Shown piece after piece: positions 39,188 to 46,351 of a DNA stretch of 64,000 nucleotides (position 1 is the first letter of the stretch; each line of letters opens with the position of its first letter). This DNA comes from Gemmatimonadota bacterium (GTDB taxonomy: Bacteria; JAAXHH01). Below the pieces are notes generated by a model. The model ran no database searches. It saw only the letters and a program-made list of their open reading frames with translations, and had not been told where the DNA came from. Location of the stretch: contig JAPPBT010000065.1 of assembly GCA_026702745.1 (NCBI GenBank), forward strand, positions 124,001 through 188,000, in the 5' to 3' direction. A program made the translations under genes and the position numbers.

Positions 39188-41044
39188 ATGTCATTCAGCA
39201 TGATAACGACTCGTTTTGCCATACTGGTGATCGCAGGCGGCCTCTGGGCCGCGGGTTGCGGCGGCGGCGATTCACCGACAAGTCCGACACCTACCTCACC
39301 ATCCCCTCCACCTCCACCGCCACCTCCGCCACCTGCACCGACGGTCTCCGTAGTCGAAGTCAGCCCGAACATGGCGACGCTGGAGGTGGGCAGGACCCAA
39401 CGGTTTGTCGCGACCGCCAAAGCTTCCGACGGCACCGTGATCAGCGGGGTCGATTTTGCCTGGTCGAGCAGCAATACCGCCATAGCTACCATCAATAACA
39501 ACGGGGTTGCCACGGCCGTGGCCGCAGGAACGGCCACCATCCGGGCGACGGGCAACGGCGTCTCGAGCGCGGCGGTAACGATTACGGTCACTGTGGCTGC
39601 CGTATCCCGTATCACGATCGCTCCTTCATCGACCCAGGTGTTGATGATAGGGGAAATGGTCACCTTCACGGCAACAGCCCGGACGGCGGGAGGCGTTGTG
39701 CGCGATGACGTAAGTGTCTCATGGGAGAGCAGCGACCTCACCGTAGTGACCATAACTTCCGCCGGTGTGGCCACGGCCATCGGCGCCGGTATGGCGACGG
39801 TCCGCGCTACGGCGGACGGAATCTGGAGTGCCCCGGTAACGATCAACGTGGCCGAACCGCCGCCGCCAGAACCGGTAGTGGCGACGGTGACGGTGAGTCC
39901 GGCTGAAGCGATGGTCGAGGTAGATGCGACACAGCAGTTCGAGGCGAAGGCACTGACGTCAGACGGTATGGAAGTCCCGGACGTGGAGTTCACCTGGTCG
40001 AGCTCGGATGATATGGTGGCGACGGTCGATTCGGACGGTCTGGCGACGGGTGTCGGATCTGGCGAAGCGATGATCACGGCCACCGCGGACAGTATATCGG
40101 GCATGGCAACGTTGACGGTGACTGAACCGCCGCCGCCCGAGCCCGTAGTAGCCAGCGTCGAGATTGTTGATGCCATGCCGGTGATGCTCGAGATCGGTGA
40201 TACGCATCAGCTTATGGCCGTAGCCCGAACTTCAGACGGGACCATGGTCAGTGAGGTGGTTTTTGCGTGGTCGAGCGACGACAACGAGGTAGCGACCGTT
40301 GATTCGACCGGGCTGGTTACCGCGGTCGGAGCAGGCATGGCAACAATTACCGCCATGACAGAAGAAATCACTTCCGAACCGGTGACTGTCACGGTTGCCG
40401 AACCTCCTCCTGTAGTAGACAGGGTAGTCGTGGAACCATCAACTGCGTCAATTGAGGAAGGTGAGACGCGGCGATTTACAGCCAAAGCCTATACTTCGGA
40501 CAATGATGCCATATCCGGCAAGACCTTTACATGGACGAGTAGCCGGCCTTCAGTGGCGACCATAAGTTCATCCGGTTTGGCGAGGGGTGTGAATGCCGGC
40601 ACCACAACTATTGAAGCATCCGTTGACGGCAAGTCCGACACGGCAACGCTGAGGGTGACGGCGCCGCCTCCACCGCCACCTCCACCTCCACCGCCGCCAC
40701 CGCCGATGTTGAGAAGCCGTACCGCGACGATTTCGGGCGCTTATTCGGCTGCTGGAAGAGTAACACTAAGTGAAGTTGCCGGCGGGCAACTCAAGCTGAC
40801 AATAAACGGTCTAAATAGCACCGCGCCTGATACGTGGTTGGCACTTTCAGAGAATGCAAGCATTAGCTGGAGTAGGAGTCAAAATCTACCCAGTACAGCG
40901 CGTAGTTTCGGTGCGGTTTCAAATGGGAATTTTACGAGAACGTTTACACCTCCATCGGGCAAGGATATCGACTCATACGACTATGTCATTCTCTATTGTA
41001 GGGCGTTCAACCTGCTAATCTCCTCGAATTCCTTTAGTAACTAG
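39188..41044 (+). CDS. Lipoprotein with five Big2 Ig-like domains and C-terminal DM13 domain
   Basis: A 618-residue protein from ATG 39188 (GGTAGGAGG just upstream; the longer frame from 39137 covers repeat DNA). The signal ends in a lipobox AAGC. A proline-rich linker (about 33-47) leads to five Big2-type immunoglobulin repeats (about 51-134, 137-221, 231-310, 319-404, 411-491), each with a WSSSD..VATV..G.ATAVGAG pattern. A second polyproline stretch (about 493-506) joins a C-terminal domain with ISGAYSAAGRVTLSE, TAPDTWLALSENA and DYVILYCRAFNLL. The last carries the near-invariant Cys of DM13 domains, thought to act in redox or electron transfer. It is probably surface-exposed, and starts a cluster with barrel proteins and cytochromes. 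Confidence 0.82.
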   Translation: MSFSMITTRFAILVIAGGLWAAGCGGGDSPTSPTPTSPSPPPPPPPPPPAPTVSVVEVSPNMATLEVGRTQRFVATAKASDGTVISGVDFAWSSSNTAIATINNNGVATAVAAGTATIRATGNGVSSAAVTITVTVAAVSRITIAPSSTQVLMIGEMVTFTATARTAGGVVRDDVSVSWESSDLTVVTITSAGVATAIGAGMATVRATADGIWSAPVTINVAEPPPPEPVVATVTVSPAEAMVEVDATQQFEAKALTSDGMEVPDVEFTWSSSDDMVATVDSDGLATGVGSGEAMITATADSISGMATLTVTEPPPPEPVVASVEIVDAMPVMLEIGDTHQLMAVARTSDGTMVSEVVFAWSSDDNEVATVDSTGLVTAVGAGMATITAMTEEITSEPVTVTVAEPPPVVDRVVVEPSTASIEEGETRRFTAKAYTSDNDAISGKTFTWTSSRPSVATISSSGLARGVNAGTTTIEASVDGKSDTATLRVTAPPPPPPPPPPPPPPMLRSRTATISGAYSAAGRVTLSEVAGGQLKLTINGLNSTAPDTWLALSENASISWSRSQNLPSTARSFGAVSNGNFTRTFTPPSGKDIDSYDYVILYCRAFNLLISSNSFSN

Positions 41045-41063
41045 TCAGTAAAGGATCAACAAT

Positions 41064-41891
41064 ATGAAAAGGTTTGTATTCTTCGTTTTATTTGTTGCCG
41101 TGATTATAGGCCATACCTCCACTACCCACGCTGGTGGATGGACTCAACCAAAGGGTAAGGGATATTTTAAATTGAGCCAGCAGGTCGTACGGGCGGACGC
41201 AATTACACGGCCGAACGGCGAACGCCATGAAATCCCCACTACTGTCAGTGGATATACGACGAGCTTGTACGGCGAATTCGGTTTGCTCGACCGCTTGACG
41301 CTGGTAGGATATTTGCCCGCTTATACGAATTTCAGCACAGATTTGGATGGGATACCGTCATCGTCAGGAATTGGTGATTGGGACATAGGATTGAGGGTCG
41401 GAATCCTTACCGAAGGACAAACAGTGGTCAGTCTGCAGGCCATGGCCGGGTTGCCGCTTGGTGAGTCAGGGGACGACATCCTCCTGTGGACCGGTGACGG
41501 CGAATTCAATCAACACGTCTCCTTACAAATAGGCCATTCGCTCTATCCCGTACCAGCCTATTTAAAAGGTGAGATCGGATACAACAACCGTCAAAGCAGC
41601 GATAACCGCGACGAAAATTACGCCGACGAGTTCCGGTATACCCTGCAGGCCGGATATACAATCGCTGACAGAGTGGGTATCTCGGTCTCGGTTCGCGGTG
41701 TCGAAGCCCTCGACCGAGCGGACGACGAATTTCACGAGCGTAACGATGTCGAGTACCTGTCCTATGGGCCTCAGGTCGATTTCTACGTTACGCCCAACGC
41801 GGGTATTACCGCCAGCATGTCGAGATTCACCAGAAGTCATAACATGCTGGACGCCCCAACGTGGGAATTCGGCGTTTTTCTGAAACTGTAG
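41064..41891 (+). CDS. Outer-membrane beta-barrel protein (copy 1)
   Basis: A 275-residue protein with a signal peptide ending THA and a mature N-terminus GGWTQPKGKGYFKLSQQ. Alternating aromatic strands run to a C-terminal Leu (FGVFLKL), typical of outer-membrane barrels recognised by BamA. The SLYGEFGLLDRLTLVGYLPAY and GIGDWDIGLRVGI motifs resemble the MetA-pathway/phenol-degradation barrel family (PF13557-like). It starts 19 bases after the Big2/DM13 gene and is followed after 10 bases by a paralogue. Function is unknown; transport or anchoring are both possible. Confidence 0.75.
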   Translation: MKRFVFFVLFVAVIIGHTSTTHAGGWTQPKGKGYFKLSQQVVRADAITRPNGERHEIPTTVSGYTTSLYGEFGLLDRLTLVGYLPAYTNFSTDLDGIPSSSGIGDWDIGLRVGILTEGQTVVSLQAMAGLPLGESGDDILLWTGDGEFNQHVSLQIGHSLYPVPAYLKGEIGYNNRQSSDNRDENYADEFRYTLQAGYTIADRVGISVSVRGVEALDRADDEFHERNDVEYLSYGPQVDFYVTPNAGITASMSRFTRSHNMLDAPTWEFGVFLKL

Positions 41892-41901
41892 GTAATAGCC
41901 G

Positions 41902-42711
41902 ATGTCGAGAATCGTCATACTCGCCGCGTTGCTCGCTGGATTCATCATTCAGGCAAGCACGGTCTTCGCCGGGGGATGGACGCACGCTCCGGGGAAAGGC
42001 TACTTCAAGCTCAATGAGCAGTTGGTTAAGAGCGATTCGTACTTTCAACCGTCCGGACGAAAGACCGATATAACGGAGTTAAGCCGTTATACTACCAGCC
42101 TGTACGGCGAATACGGCCTGGCAGACCGGTTGACGCTTGTAGGATATATCCCCTTTTACCAGCATATAAGCGAAGACCGGCCCGGGTCCGAAGCCAAGAC
42201 GGGTACGGGCGACTGGGAGCTTGGTGCTCGGATCGGATTGCTCACCAACCGGCCCACGGTCGTGAGCATTCAGATCATGGCCGGCCTGCCGCTGGGAGAT
42301 TCTTTCTCCGATCAACAGGAAGTTGGCCTGTTCACAGGGGACGGAGAATTCAACCAGTTGTTTATGCTCCAGGTCGGTCATTCCCTGTGGCCGACACCGG
42401 GCTATCTCAAAGCGGAAATAGGATACAATAACCGCGAGAGCGATTTTTCGGACGAGATACGATACGCCGTGGAAGCGGGATTCATGGTCGGTGAGCGTTT
42501 TGGCGTCTCCGGCTGGGTCCGCGGCGCGAAAGCGGTCGGTACAGATGGAGAATGGACCGTGTACGACCAGCAGTACGTGTCTTTCGGTCCGGAGGTGAGT
42601 GTTAATTTTACGCCCAACGCGGGAATCACCGCCGGCGTGACGAAGTACACGGGCGCTCACAATGTGCTGGACGCGCCCGCCTGGGACATCGGACTTTTCA
42701 TGAAGTTGTAG
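41902..42711 (+). CDS. Outer-membrane beta-barrel protein (copy 2)
   Basis: A 269-residue paralogue of the preceding gene, collinear throughout. It has the same mature start (GGWTHAPGKGYFKLNEQ), the same SLYGEYGLADRLTLVGYIPFY and GTGDWELGARIGL blocks, and the same C-terminal end (WDIGLFMKL). The duplication is old enough for the middle regions to differ. It lies 10 bases after copy 1 and 50 bases before the DUF3830-like gene, so all appear to form one operon with the Big2/DM13 lipoprotein. Confidence 0.75.
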   Translation: MSRIVILAALLAGFIIQASTVFAGGWTHAPGKGYFKLNEQLVKSDSYFQPSGRKTDITELSRYTTSLYGEYGLADRLTLVGYIPFYQHISEDRPGSEAKTGTGDWELGARIGLLTNRPTVVSIQIMAGLPLGDSFSDQQEVGLFTGDGEFNQLFMLQVGHSLWPTPGYLKAEIGYNNRESDFSDEIRYAVEAGFMVGERFGVSGWVRGAKAVGTDGEWTVYDQQYVSFGPEVSVNFTPNAGITAGVTKYTGAHNVLDAPAWDIGLFMKL

Positions 42712-42761
42712 TTCCGACCCTTTAGCTAATCTCAGTCATATTAAGGATTTCTGGACAACTC

Positions 42762-43211
42762 ATGCCGCGCAGGATTCGATTGTCCTTTGTCAACGAAGAC
42801 GTTTCCGTCGAAGCCGAAATGCTCGAGGACGAGGCCCCGAGGACCTGCCAGGCCGTATGGGACGCCCTGCCCCTGGTGGAGGAGGGCATTCACGCCGTGT
42901 ACTCCGGCAGCGAAATCGCCTACTTCCTGTCCGAGGACATGGTCATCCCACCCGAGAACCTGACGAGCTGCACATTGCCCGGCGATATCTGCTACTACCG
43001 CCTGGAATCGGGCCTGATGCACGGATTGCTGGACGGCATCACTGAACTGTGCTGGTTCGACGGAAGGGACGGCCGCCCCAACATGCCGGACGGCCCGGTC
43101 TCGGTGAACCTTTTCGCCCGGATGGTCGGAGACGCCAGTGAATTCTTCGAGGTGTGCTACCGCATTCGGCGGGAAGGGATGAAACGCGTTCGGATCGAAC
43201 AGGTCGTTTGA
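42762..43211 (+). CDS. DUF3830-family protein, cyclophilin-like fold
   Basis: A 149-residue protein resembling DUF3830: RRIRLSFVNEDVSVEAEMLE, TCQAVWDALPLVEEGIHAVYSGSE and the PGDICYYR block. These proteins have a small cyclophilin-like barrel; no activity is established. No signal peptide, so cytoplasmic. It follows the beta-barrel pair at 50 bases. The 217-base spacer after it contains three copies of a 9-bp repeat. Confidence 0.65.
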   Translation: MPRRIRLSFVNEDVSVEAEMLEDEAPRTCQAVWDALPLVEEGIHAVYSGSEIAYFLSEDMVIPPENLTSCTLPGDICYYRLESGLMHGLLDGITELCWFDGRDGRPNMPDGPVSVNLFARMVGDASEFFEVCYRIRREGMKRVRIEQVV

Positions 43212-43332
43212 ATTCGGATCGCAGGAATACGCTCTCAAATCGGTCTAATCTAACACACAGTCTCACATCATATCGTCAACGAAACGGCAGATGACCTCGG
43301 TGTCCGATCGGTTCGTTGTGTACTAGGCTGGA

Positions 43333-43359
43333 CCGGACAGTCCGGACAGTCCGGACCGT
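43333..43359. repeat. 9-bp tandem repeat before cytochrome gene
   Basis: CCGGACAGT occurs twice and a third copy reads CCGGACCGT. The block is nearly self-complementary and could fold into small hairpins in the 217-base spacer between the DUF3830-like and cytochrome genes. Confidence 0.6.
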
Positions 43360-43428
43360 GCAGCCAGCCTGGCCAATTCTTCCAGTCTAGCTAATTCGAC
43401 AGCCACCTTCGCAGAAACTTGTACGGAT

Positions 43429-44565
43429 ATGCATCTACATTACAGGAATTTTGCGGTGCCGCTCTGTTTTCTAGTTCTCTTTCTGGCGCGTCCTGCCTTC
43501 GCCGACCAGGTAGACGGGGCCAACCCCGTTGCCGGGACCAGACCATTAGACGGAGCCAAGCTCTATGAACAAGCCTGCTCGGCCTGTCACGGTTCGGACG
43601 GCAGGGGCCGGACAATCGAAGAACTTGGTTTCGAGCTTGAGCTTCCGGACTTTACGGACTGCGAATTTGCGTCCCGCGAACCCGATCCCGACTGGCACGC
43701 CGTGATCCATGAAGGCGGGCCGGTGCGGGCCTTCGACCGCATGATGCCTGCCTTCGGGGATGCCCTGACGGACGAGGAAATCTACGCCATCCTCGGGCAC
43801 GTCCGCACTTTCTGCACCAACGATAACTGGCCCCGCGGCGAATTCAACGTTCCGAAGCCCCTGTTTACCGAAAAGGCCTTTCCCGAAGACGAGACTGTTT
43901 TCAACCTGACGCTGGACACGGACGACAGCAAGGCCGTGATGATAGAGCCGTTATACGAAAAGCGATTCGGCCCTCGCGGCATGATCGAGGTGAAAGTTCC
44001 CTTCGGCCGACGCAATGCCGAGCGGGACGACGGTACCAACCTGGGCTTCGGAGACGTTTCCCTTGGATATAAGTATGCCCTGTACCACGCGCTGGAGCGC
44101 GGCAATGCGTTGAGTGCAGGCGGTGAAGTCATCCTGCCTACCGGCAACGAAGATGAAGGTTTCGGTTCGGGCTCCACCAAACTGGAGCCCTATCTGGCCT
44201 TCGTCCAGCTGATGCCCTGCGATGCCTTTTTCCAGGCCCAGGCGCTGGGGGAGTTTGCCGTGAGCGGTACCGCCGAGGATGAGGTAGCCGTCCGGGCGCT
44301 GATCGGCAGGACCTTCACGGAGGGTGAGTTCGGCCGGGCCTGGAGTCCCATGGTCGAGGTGCTGGCCTGGCGCGCACTGGATGCCGGTTCCGATGTCACG
44401 CTGGACCTTGTGCCACAACTGCAGGTGGCGCTCAATACGCGCCAGCACATACTTTTCAACGTAGGGGTGCGGTTACCGGTCGCCAACAGGCAGGACCGCA
44501 AGGCACAGATCGTCATGTACCTGCTCTGGGACTGGTTCGACGGAGGATTTCGCGATGGCTGGTAA
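43429..44565 (+). CDS. Cytochrome c domain fused to an outer-membrane beta-barrel
   Basis: A 378-residue protein with a signal peptide (to about residue 26, PAFAD). Residues about 35-125 are a class I cytochrome c: CSACHGSDGRG binds the heme, and a Met in FDRMMPAFGD is the likely sixth ligand. After a linker, residues about 150-378 are alternating strands (GMIEVKVPFGRR, GFGDVSLGYKYALYHALE, GNALSAGGEVILPTG, HILFNVGVRLPV) ending in a short aromatic strand, matching the PF13557-like barrels encoded just upstream. A single-heme domain fused to a barrel suggests electron transfer at the outer membrane. Its last codons overlap the next gene by 11 bases. Confidence 0.78.
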   Translation: MHLHYRNFAVPLCFLVLFLARPAFADQVDGANPVAGTRPLDGAKLYEQACSACHGSDGRGRTIEELGFELELPDFTDCEFASREPDPDWHAVIHEGGPVRAFDRMMPAFGDALTDEEIYAILGHVRTFCTNDNWPRGEFNVPKPLFTEKAFPEDETVFNLTLDTDDSKAVMIEPLYEKRFGPRGMIEVKVPFGRRNAERDDGTNLGFGDVSLGYKYALYHALERGNALSAGGEVILPTGNEDEGFGSGSTKLEPYLAFVQLMPCDAFFQAQALGEFAVSGTAEDEVAVRALIGRTFTEGEFGRAWSPMVEVLAWRALDAGSDVTLDLVPQLQVALNTRQHILFNVGVRLPVANRQDRKAQIVMYLLWDWFDGGFRDGW

Positions 44566-44637
44566 CCGGACTACGAACCGATGGTCGTCATGTACCTGTC
44601 GTGGGACGGGTTTGACGGGAGGTACTGCTTTGGCTGG
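44512..44637 (+). repeat. Duplicated 3' end of the cytochrome-barrel gene
   Basis: The last 51 bases before the stop (44512-44562) are repeated at 44587-44637 with 13 differences, in the same frame, encoding VMYLLWDWFDGGFRDGW and VMYLSWDGFDGRYCFGW. The second copy lies inside the nominal N-terminus of the next gene, but out of that gene's frame. Confidence 0.8.
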
Positions 44638-46351
44638 CAGCTCCGCGAGCAGGCTTCAGAACAGGCCGTGGGCGTACAGCACGCAGGCGCGGCTCGGTCT
44701 CGTCTGGCTAACGTTCGCATGGCTGGCATTCGCCTGGATGGCGTTCGTCGGGTTCGCGTGTGCGTCCGTTGACGCGCAATCAGTCGACGAGCAATCAGTC
44801 GACGCGCAAACGGTGGACCACAGCACCTTCGCCACTTCGGATCAATGCATCGCCTGCCACAGCAATATCGTCGACGCGGACGGGCAGATCGTGTCCATCA
44901 GCCATGTCTGGCGCGGATCCATGATGGCGCATTCCGCCCGGGACCCCTACTGGCAGGCATCCGTGCGGCGTGAGGTCACCGACCATCCGGGCGCGCGGGC
45001 CGAGATCGAGGATACCTGCTCGACCTGCCATATGCCCATGGCCCGTGTGGTAGCTCGGGAGAACGGTGGACTCGGGGAGGTGTTTGCGCACCTCGAAGCG
45101 GCCCGGCGGGGCGAGGAAAGTGCGCTGCTCGCCATGGACGGAGTGTCCTGCACCACCTGCCACCAGATACAGCCCGATAATTTCGGCGATGAATCAAGCT
45201 TCGACGGAAACTTCGTGGTTCGGACGGAATCCGGCGTCGACCCGCGGATTTTCGGACCGTTTGAGGTGGACGACGGGTTGACCCGGGTCATGCAGTCGGC
45301 CACGGGTTTCCTCCCGGACAGTTCCGTCCACGTCCAGCAGTCCGAGCTCTGCGCCACGTGCCACACCCTGTTCACGACGAGTCTGGACGCCGAGGGCCGG
45401 GAAGTGGCCCGTTTCCCGGAACAGACGCCCTACCTGGAGTGGAGGCACAGCGCCTTCGCGGAATCGGAAAGCTGCCAGTCCTGCCATATGCCGGAGATCG
45501 CATCGGCGCCCATCTCCTCGGTGCTCGGAGAATACCGGGAGGGTGTCTCGCAGCATGTGTTCCGCGGCGGCAACGAGTTCATGCTGCGTATTCTGGACAA
45601 ATACCGCGATGAACTGCTCGTGACTGCACCGTCCAGCGATCTTCAGCGCGCCGCCGAAGCGACCCTGGAAAACCTGGAGACCGCCACCGCCCGGCTGGAG
45701 GTGCTGGCCGTGTCCCGCGATGAGGACCACGTTTCTATCGATATCGAGGTGACGAACCTGGCGGGTCACAAGCTGCCGACGGCCTACCCGTCTAGAAGGG
45801 CCTGGATCCACCTCGAGGTGCACGATGACGGCGGGAACCAGGTGTTTGAATCCGGCGCCATGCATCCCGACGGAAGCATCGAGGGCAACGACAACGACGC
45901 GGACGGGTCCCGTTACGAGCCGCACTACCTGGTGATCGAAGATCCGGGCCAGGTACAGATCTATGAACCGATTATAGCGGACGGGACGGGAAACGTAACC
46001 ACCGGCCTGCTAACGGCCGTCACCTACGCCAAGGACAACCGGCTGCTTCCCGATGGTTTTGACCGGGAGACGGCCGAGGCCGCCATCATGGTGCACGGCC
46101 AGGCGGGGGAAGACGCGGATTTCCAGGCCGGAAGCGACAGGATCACGTACCGGGTCGAGGTCCCGGCCGGCGTGCAGCGCGTCGATGTCCGGGTGCGGCT
46201 CATGTTCCAGACGATCGGCTTCCGGTGGGCGCAGAACCTCGCCCCCTACGATGCCCATGAAACGCAGCGCTTCGTCTCCTACTACAACGAAAACGCCTCG
46301 ACCTCGGCCGTCGTGCTCGCCGAGGCCAACCACCGCCAGGACCTGCCGTAG
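44555..46351 (+). CDS. Five-heme cytochrome c
   Basis: Five heme-binding motifs are visible in order: CIACH, CSTCH, CTTCH, CATCH and CQSCH, all in the first 320 residues, resembling the cytochrome c554/multiheme fold. The C-terminal 270 residues have LEVLAVSRDEDHVSIDIEVT, GHKLPTAYPSRRAWIHLEV and a later beta-rich part, probably an Ig-like sandwich. The nominal ATG overlaps the upstream stop, but its first 28 codons re-read duplicated tail DNA, so the real start may be TTG 44627 or nearby, just before the signal segment LVWLTFAWLAFAWMAFVGF. A short repeat (SVDAQSVDEQSVDAQTVD, about 44764-44817) follows the signal. Probably periplasmic or outer-membrane electron carrier, coupled to the preceding cytochrome. 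Confidence 0.88.
   Translation: MAGNRTTNRWSSCTCRGTGLTGGTALAGSSASRLQNRPWAYSTQARLGLVWLTFAWLAFAWMAFVGFACASVDAQSVDEQSVDAQTVDHSTFATSDQCIACHSNIVDADGQIVSISHVWRGSMMAHSARDPYWQASVRREVTDHPGARAEIEDTCSTCHMPMARVVARENGGLGEVFAHLEAARRGEESALLAMDGVSCTTCHQIQPDNFGDESSFDGNFVVRTESGVDPRIFGPFEVDDGLTRVMQSATGFLPDSSVHVQQSELCATCHTLFTTSLDAEGREVARFPEQTPYLEWRHSAFAESESCQSCHMPEIASAPISSVLGEYREGVSQHVFRGGNEFMLRILDKYRDELLVTAPSSDLQRAAEATLENLETATARLEVLAVSRDEDHVSIDIEVTNLAGHKLPTAYPSRRAWIHLEVHDDGGNQVFESGAMHPDGSIEGNDNDADGSRYEPHYLVIEDPGQVQIYEPIIADGTGNVTTGLLTAVTYAKDNRLLPDGFDRETAEAAIMVHGQAGEDADFQAGSDRITYRVEVPAGVQRVDVRVRLMFQTIGFRWAQNLAPYDAHETQRFVSYYNENASTSAVVLAEANHRQDLP

Follow-up and report, generated by a model that had tools for sequence, protein, structure and literature searches.

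The question raised by positions 39,188 to 46,351 of the DNA stretch analysed here (64,000 nucleotides of contig JAPPBT010000065.1, hereafter the window) is whether the envelope genes encoded there work as one system that moves electrons across the outer membrane. The original prediction, made from the sequence alone, had proposed this for five genes of exported or outer-membrane proteins. All five open reading frames (ORFs) are present, but sequence comparison indicates that the proposed cluster is two unrelated gene sets lying side by side: a first module made of a DM13 lipoprotein and two barrels, barA and barB, and a second made of cytbar, a cytochrome c–barrel fusion, and penta, a five-heme cytochrome. 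For the second of these modules, an outer-membrane electron-transfer role is plausible. The window comes from a 3.9 Mb genome bin, whose nearest named records are Candidatus Latescibacterota and metagenome-assembled genomes (MAGs) labelled Gemmatimonadetes or Gemmatimonadota. Judging from their names, many of the MAG series compared here are presumably sponge-derived.

Six ORFs follow one another on the plus strand, to which the window coordinates below refer: the DM13 lipoprotein gene, barA, barB, a DUF3830 gene, cytbar, and penta. The DUF3830 gene (42762–43211; Pfam E 1.2e-26), which was missing from the earlier list of genes, encodes a protein without a signal peptide and lies between the modules as a member of neither. 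Together with the 217-nt gap that separates it from cytbar, it keeps the DM13, barA, and barB genes apart from cytbar and penta. Within the genus it was 84–89% identical where coverage was nearly full-length. A scan for promoters and terminators revealed sites no more numerous than in shuffles.

Gene order in related genomes, which the original prediction had suggested as a check, was kept within the genus: all six genes were found in order in 10 of the 11 other species (in G006 across two contigs). In G004, which is 90% complete and split into 520 contigs, no cytbar, penta, barrels, or DM13 were found. This co-occurrence speaks for a single trans-outer-membrane conduit built from all five exported proteins. 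However, dnaE upstream, and the CehA, metallophosphatase, and Nramp genes downstream, were equally syntenic in the genus wherever contigs reached, so that order within the genus can tell little about function. Beyond the genus, cytbar and penta were adjacent in 10 loci (L098–L107) and in G347, G385, and G388, while none of DM13, barA, barB, or DUF3830 was detected in the L098–L107 stretches or next to the pair in G347. It is because the modules part outside the genus, where they never co-occurred in the loci seen, that they can be treated as separate, and the five-gene conduit was rejected on the same ground. The non-exported gene intervening between the modules also argues against such a conduit, as does the lack of a detectable sequence relation between the cytbar barrel and barA/barB (an hhalign probability of 0.3%, on which the cytbar barrel was dismissed as a paralogue of these two), and we find it hardly credible. 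Thus, the claim of one cluster does not hold: across phyla only cytbar and penta stay joined, and the DM13, barA, and barB part is unlinked to the cytochromes.

The association of cytbar with penta appeared to be strict. The two genes were adjacent in 25 of 25 loci compared, which come from Latescibacterota, Gammaproteobacteria, and Acidobacteriota MAGs. In the window, the penta ATG lies within the last codons of cytbar, and it overlaps them and the stop codon by 11 nt (44555–44565, ATGGCTGGTAR) in a register that is kept across loci; the five-heme cytochrome gene is coupled to cytbar, as had been proposed. In 19 of the 21 resolved junctions, representing three phyla, the distance from the penta ATG to the end of the cytbar stop codon was exactly 11 nt, in ATGGCTGGTAR or a near variant of it, the exceptions being L099, where a GTG lies one codon upstream, and L107, in which the junction is shifted. 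A repeat search also detected a partial duplication with a 75-nt period spanning the 3' end of cytbar and the start of penta in the window (44510–44637; 44510–44562 and 44585–44637 are 75% identical). It extends the N-terminus of penta in frame, and a similar piece is present in G010.

The pair, as its sequences indicate, has been transferred between phyla as a unit. The L098–L107 loci belong to Gammaproteobacteria, Acidobacteriota, and one Gemmatimonadetes-labelled MAG, and are about 50–78% identical; as two of these loci lie on contigs as long as 3.1 and 3.9 Mb, misbinning is unlikely for them. In a concatenated, midpoint-rooted tree of cytbar and penta, the Latescibacterota copies were nested in the gammaproteobacterial copies, and these within the Acidobacteriota copies, with support values of 90–100 at the deciding nodes. 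The nesting of the Latescibacterota copies inside a gammaproteobacterial grade argues for movement of the pair between phyla, and the simplest reading of this midpoint-rooted tree would be a transfer from Acidobacteriota to Gammaproteobacteria and from these to Latescibacterota. The gammaproteobacterial copy L098 was 78–82% identical to those of the genus, versus 80–89% within the genus among the rows printed; for dnaE, identity within the genus was 90–97%. A search of PLSDB for plasmid carriage gave no match. Taken together, the strict pairing, the fixed 11-nt overlap, and the joint transfer point to a joint function of cytbar and penta. They make it improbable that the two are ordinary neighbours, a periplasmic electron-storage cytochrome beside a general porin that happens to bear a cytochrome, with no dedicated function at the outer membrane. 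In Acidobacteriota loci (L105:12710–14708; also L104 and L106), the pair is followed by a conserved exported protein of about 376 aa and by a lipoprotein whose long tail is rich in Asp, Glu, and Gly; in L105, no Pfam match was obtained for either protein. In a published metabolic reconstruction, the Latescibacterota of sponges are described as heterotrophs whose aerobic processes are complete; the paper (PMC12993501) does not contain the word 'cytochrome'.

The product of cytbar (43429–44565; 378 aa) is a predicted Sec-exported protein in which, as the original prediction had recognized, a barrel carries its own cytochrome c domain (Pfam Cytochrome_CBB3, E 3e-9; Phenol_MetA_deg, E 8e-8), and full-length orthologues occur in three phyla. 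The class I cytochrome c domain (43543–43818), with solved relatives among c552, c6, and CcoP, contains the heme motif CSACH (C50, C53, H54). Its CXXCH and Met106, which is located in MMPAFG and likely serves as the axial heme ligand, were invariant among the aligned sequences. Two further cysteines, C78 and C129, are common to all but the most distant sequence and may form a disulfide. The barrel (43891–44529; residues 155–367, about 213 aa) was modelled by AlphaFold2 with moderate confidence, mostly at a predicted local distance difference test score (pLDDT) of 70–94 per 10-residue block, and its 14 DSSP strand segments were read as about 12 strands. Since a barrel of about 12 strands is too narrow to contain the cytochrome domain, we infer that this domain sits outside it, at its periplasmic mouth. 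A literature search for the exact cytochrome–MetA_deg architecture gave nothing relevant. Lone cytochrome–barrel fusions, with no penta, form a distant clade in one family (L069:8941–10017, L141:7712–8824, L142:6268–7581).

The top structural matches of the cytbar barrel in Foldseek were to FapF (5o68, E 1e-8), followed by a COG4313 channel (4rl8, E 2e-6), both of which are 12-strand channels. FapF serves in the secretion of amyloid and has a plug at its N-terminus. Thus, cytbar could export or anchor a partner, perhaps penta, its cytochrome domain acting as a plug or a redox gate and not as a wire, and the fact that relatives of penta gain the surface by another route, type IX secretion, is in keeping with that. 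Nevertheless, a pentaheme protein, which is folded as it matures in the periplasm, would be too big for a 12-strand pore, and the COG4313 uptake channels match nearly as well as FapF, so that we regard a secretion role as distinctly improbable.

The partner of cytbar, penta (44555–46351), is a predicted Sec-exported pentaheme cytochrome with a C-terminal beta (Ig-like) domain. It contains exactly five CXXCH motifs, at residues 98, 155, 199, 266, and 307, in agreement with the number predicted originally, and matches the Pfam MtrC/MtrF II-IV domain (E 1.2e-9). The heme motifs occupy residues 98–311 and are followed by beta strands within 379–596, in a model that is of low confidence in places. 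The score of penta against the ExtKL model (NF040886) was 29.9 bits, below the curated cut-off of 250. Its C-terminal domain gave a profile match to pentaheme c552 (5ze8, E 1.3e-6), with the hairpin region included, and a weak match to the selenoprotein MccSep. On these sequence features, penta appears to belong with pentaheme proteins of the ExtKL/c552 kind. Outside the CXXCH motifs, M124, M246, H334, H405, and H457 were invariant in 21 sequences; they are candidate sixth ligands for the five hemes, which would suit six-coordinate electron-transfer hemes. Tyr411 of penta aligns with the X of MccSep, which we read as selenocysteine U325 from the mutant name of the entry; penta has no selenocysteine there, and the idea of a catalytic tyrosine at this position was dropped, as wider relatives have Y, I, or V.

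Relatives of penta are common in genomes without full-length cytbar. Four of the seven barrel-less relatives scanned (L210, L213, L214, and L215) have a type IX secretion type A sorting domain scoring over the curated cut-off, a similar tail was seen by eye in L216 and L217, and L212 has an apparent lipobox and looks like a lipoprotein. Such relatives are probably surface or membrane-anchored proteins, the sorting tails in particular suggesting a surface position. The tailed proteins (L210 and L213–L217) are probably surface-exported multiheme cytochromes of other lineages, and would point to surface-exposed pentaheme cytochromes in more lineages; a literature search on multiheme cytochromes exported by type IX secretion found nothing relevant. 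At L208:8681–14025 and L211:5451–15730, pentaheme relatives lie near a 13-heme cytochrome, a TAT-type Fe-S protein, and an ArsR-type regulator, with an additional 11-heme cytochrome in L208 and an 8-heme cytochrome in L211, possibly as parts of another uncharacterised multiheme complex.

How might the pair work? The strict co-location, the 11-nt overlap, and the surface tails on penta relatives are what make an electron role plausible for cytbar and penta, whereas the same role, proposed earlier also for DM13, barA, and barB, is unsupported, as the DM13–barrel unit recurs without a cytochrome. The cytbar barrel would reside in the outer membrane with its His/Met monoheme domain on the periplasmic side. 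Through physical contact this monoheme would pass electrons to or take them from penta, which is co-translated with cytbar. In this way the pair would join the electron pool of the periplasm to an electron acceptor or donor at or beyond the outer membrane. We give about an even chance to such a small outer-membrane electron-exchange module, linking the periplasm to a partner at the outer membrane or beyond it.

The main rival of a conduit is a substrate gate. Here the barrel would admit a soluble metal ion or oxyanion to the periplasmic side, to be oxidised or reduced there by the monoheme of cytbar, in the manner proposed for Cyc2, or by penta, in the manner proposed for ExtKL with selenite, and no electrons would leave the cell. 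The cytochrome of Cyc2 is read as plugging the periplasmic mouth of its barrel while Fe2+ enters the pore (PMC8406198), and ExtI and ExtKL have been linked to selenite and tellurite reduction (PMC5877670). In support of that, ZIP metal transporters adjoin the pair in L098, L099, and L107, and the only export signal of penta is a Sec signal. On the other hand, the relatives with sorting tails are probably at the surface, a candidate sixth ligand is available for every heme of penta, and the selenocysteine position of MccSep is a tyrosine in penta that is unconserved in wider relatives. On balance we consider the substrate gate unlikely, though a serious contender.

Several observations weigh against electron transfer across the outer membrane by the pair. 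A lone monoheme at the periplasmic mouth cannot alone carry electrons across the membrane. In addition to its Sec signal, penta has neither a lipobox nor a type IX tail, so that it may stand on either side of the membrane. ExtKL is described as periplasmic (PMC6148476). The AlphaFold2 model of penta is of low confidence throughout (mean pLDDT 47.6), and that of the cytbar cytochrome domain is also of low confidence. Moreover, no penta match was found in the distant cytbar clade of G085, G226, and G355. We hold only tentatively, as a doubtful possibility, the more specific proposal that cytbar and penta are an undescribed minimal outer-membrane conduit, in which a small barrel with its own monoheme and a surface-facing pentaheme protein, made by overlapping translation and passed among Acidobacteriota, Gammaproteobacteria, and Latescibacterota, would serve the electron exchange of uncultured, probably sponge-associated bacteria with their surroundings or host. 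If true, such a design would occur in uncultured bacteria that are not known for extracellular electron transfer, spread by gene transfer. The unit is small enough for expression in Escherichia coli and direct testing.

The first module appears, on its gene content, to be an envelope unit of a DM13 lipoprotein and barrels that is unrelated to cytbar and penta. Its first gene (39188–41044) encodes, as predicted, a protein of Big_2 stretches (five of them, E 1.3e-51) with a C-terminal DM13 domain; a lipobox, WAAGC, was read from its sequence. The DM13 domain (PF10517) reached 26.3 bits in the six-frame search, above the gathering cut-off of 25, and 23.1 bits in the whole-protein scan. Its cysteine (codon 40997–40999) aligned with a cysteine in all relatives read; redox activity of this residue is a prediction conveyed by the Pfam name, and a literature search found no paper titled on bacterial DM13 redox function. 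The genes barA (41064–41891; a weak OMP_b-brl Pfam match) and barB (41902–42711) encode outer-membrane barrels that are 53% identical, in line with the paralogy claimed for them.

The DM13 gene lay directly 5' of barA in all genus loci read. A Big2–DM13 gene also immediately precedes a barA/barB-family barrel in G012, which belongs to a different genus within the family, and in G205, which lies outside the order, with no cytochrome next to the unit in either. In G006 the unit is tandemly duplicated, as DM13–barA and DM13–barB (L062:1–5503, L061:1–1151), whereas a single DM13 was seen in the window and in the remaining members of the genus that were read. The first three genes would therefore be a DM13–barrel unit with one DM13 copy missing in the window. 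The DM13 domains at the locus (window 40706–41041, L057–L067) fall into some three types by sequence, with no obvious correspondence to species, starting, for example, with SGSYSAAG, SGRNNYNSGG, or SGTSSYPNTAG, and their identity to the window is about 46–78%, versus 77–90% for barB. This suggests domain exchange between tandem DM13–barrel units, or fast surface evolution.

The original prediction did not recognise a described porin–cytochrome system here, and the comparison of cytbar and penta with known systems agrees with that. Known conduits are large barrels filled with multiheme proteins, or rely on the single fused heme of Cyc2; a barrel with a fused monoheme domain, paired with a pentaheme protein, would, if true, be a third, very small design. 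MtrCAB/PCC systems likewise bring a barrel and multiheme cytochromes together in the outer membrane region, and penta shares with them the MtrC/MtrF domain match. However, in place of a large barrel (20–28 strands; a 26-strand sheath) around a multiheme, decaheme plug, there is the cytbar barrel of about 12 strands, and no lipoprotein multiheme cytochrome of the outer surface was found, the sole nearby lipoprotein being the heme-free DM13 protein.

In Cyc2, as in cytbar, a monoheme c cytochrome at the N-terminus is joined to an outer-membrane barrel. The cytochrome of cytbar, however, is a full class I domain (about 90 aa), its barrel has about 12 strands where that of Cyc2 has 16, and cytbar comes with its own dedicated multiheme partner. 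The Cyc2 motif AXPXFAR[Q/K][T/Y], located 5 residues before CXXCH (PMC8406198), is absent from cytbar and its relatives, which have AKLYEQACSACH and similar sequences upstream, and in the place of PXL, 4 residues after CXXCH, cytbar has CHGSDGRGR(T/P). Likewise, no OprO/OprP, the porins that the 16-strand barrel of Cyc2 resembles, appeared among the 50 Foldseek matches listed for the cytbar model of moderate confidence. Thus, membership of cytbar in Cyc2 was rejected on motif and fold. FapF and COG4313 channels share the fold of the cytbar barrel, but neither of them is known to bear a cytochrome domain.

The members of the pentaheme cytochrome (PHC) family (ExtKL, Gsu2801, Thermochromatium tepidum c552 5ze8, and the PHCs of cable bacteria) resemble penta in that an Ig-like beta domain comes after the five c-hemes, and the hairpin GH..P...P.R of penta is as in MccSep-type proteins. 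A published analysis places the cable-bacteria cytochromes, ExtKL, and Gsu2801 in one pentaheme plus Ig-like family, which is structurally homologous to c552 (PMC11976967). In contrast to these proteins, penta scores below the ExtKL cut-off, lacks selenocysteine, has a longer C-terminal domain, and is co-translated with a cytochrome–barrel fusion. The system closest in its parts is Geobacter extHIJKL, encoding a rhodanese lipoprotein, the porin ExtI, and pentaheme ExtKL (PMC5877670, PMC6148476), in which an outer-membrane barrel gene likewise stands beside a PHC-type gene. ExtI, however, is a heme-free porin of about 21 strands (PMC6148476), whereas the barrel of cytbar has about 12 strands and a cytochrome, and neither ExtH nor ExtJ has a counterpart here. 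What is new is the pairing: the outer-membrane partner of the pentaheme protein is of a new kind.

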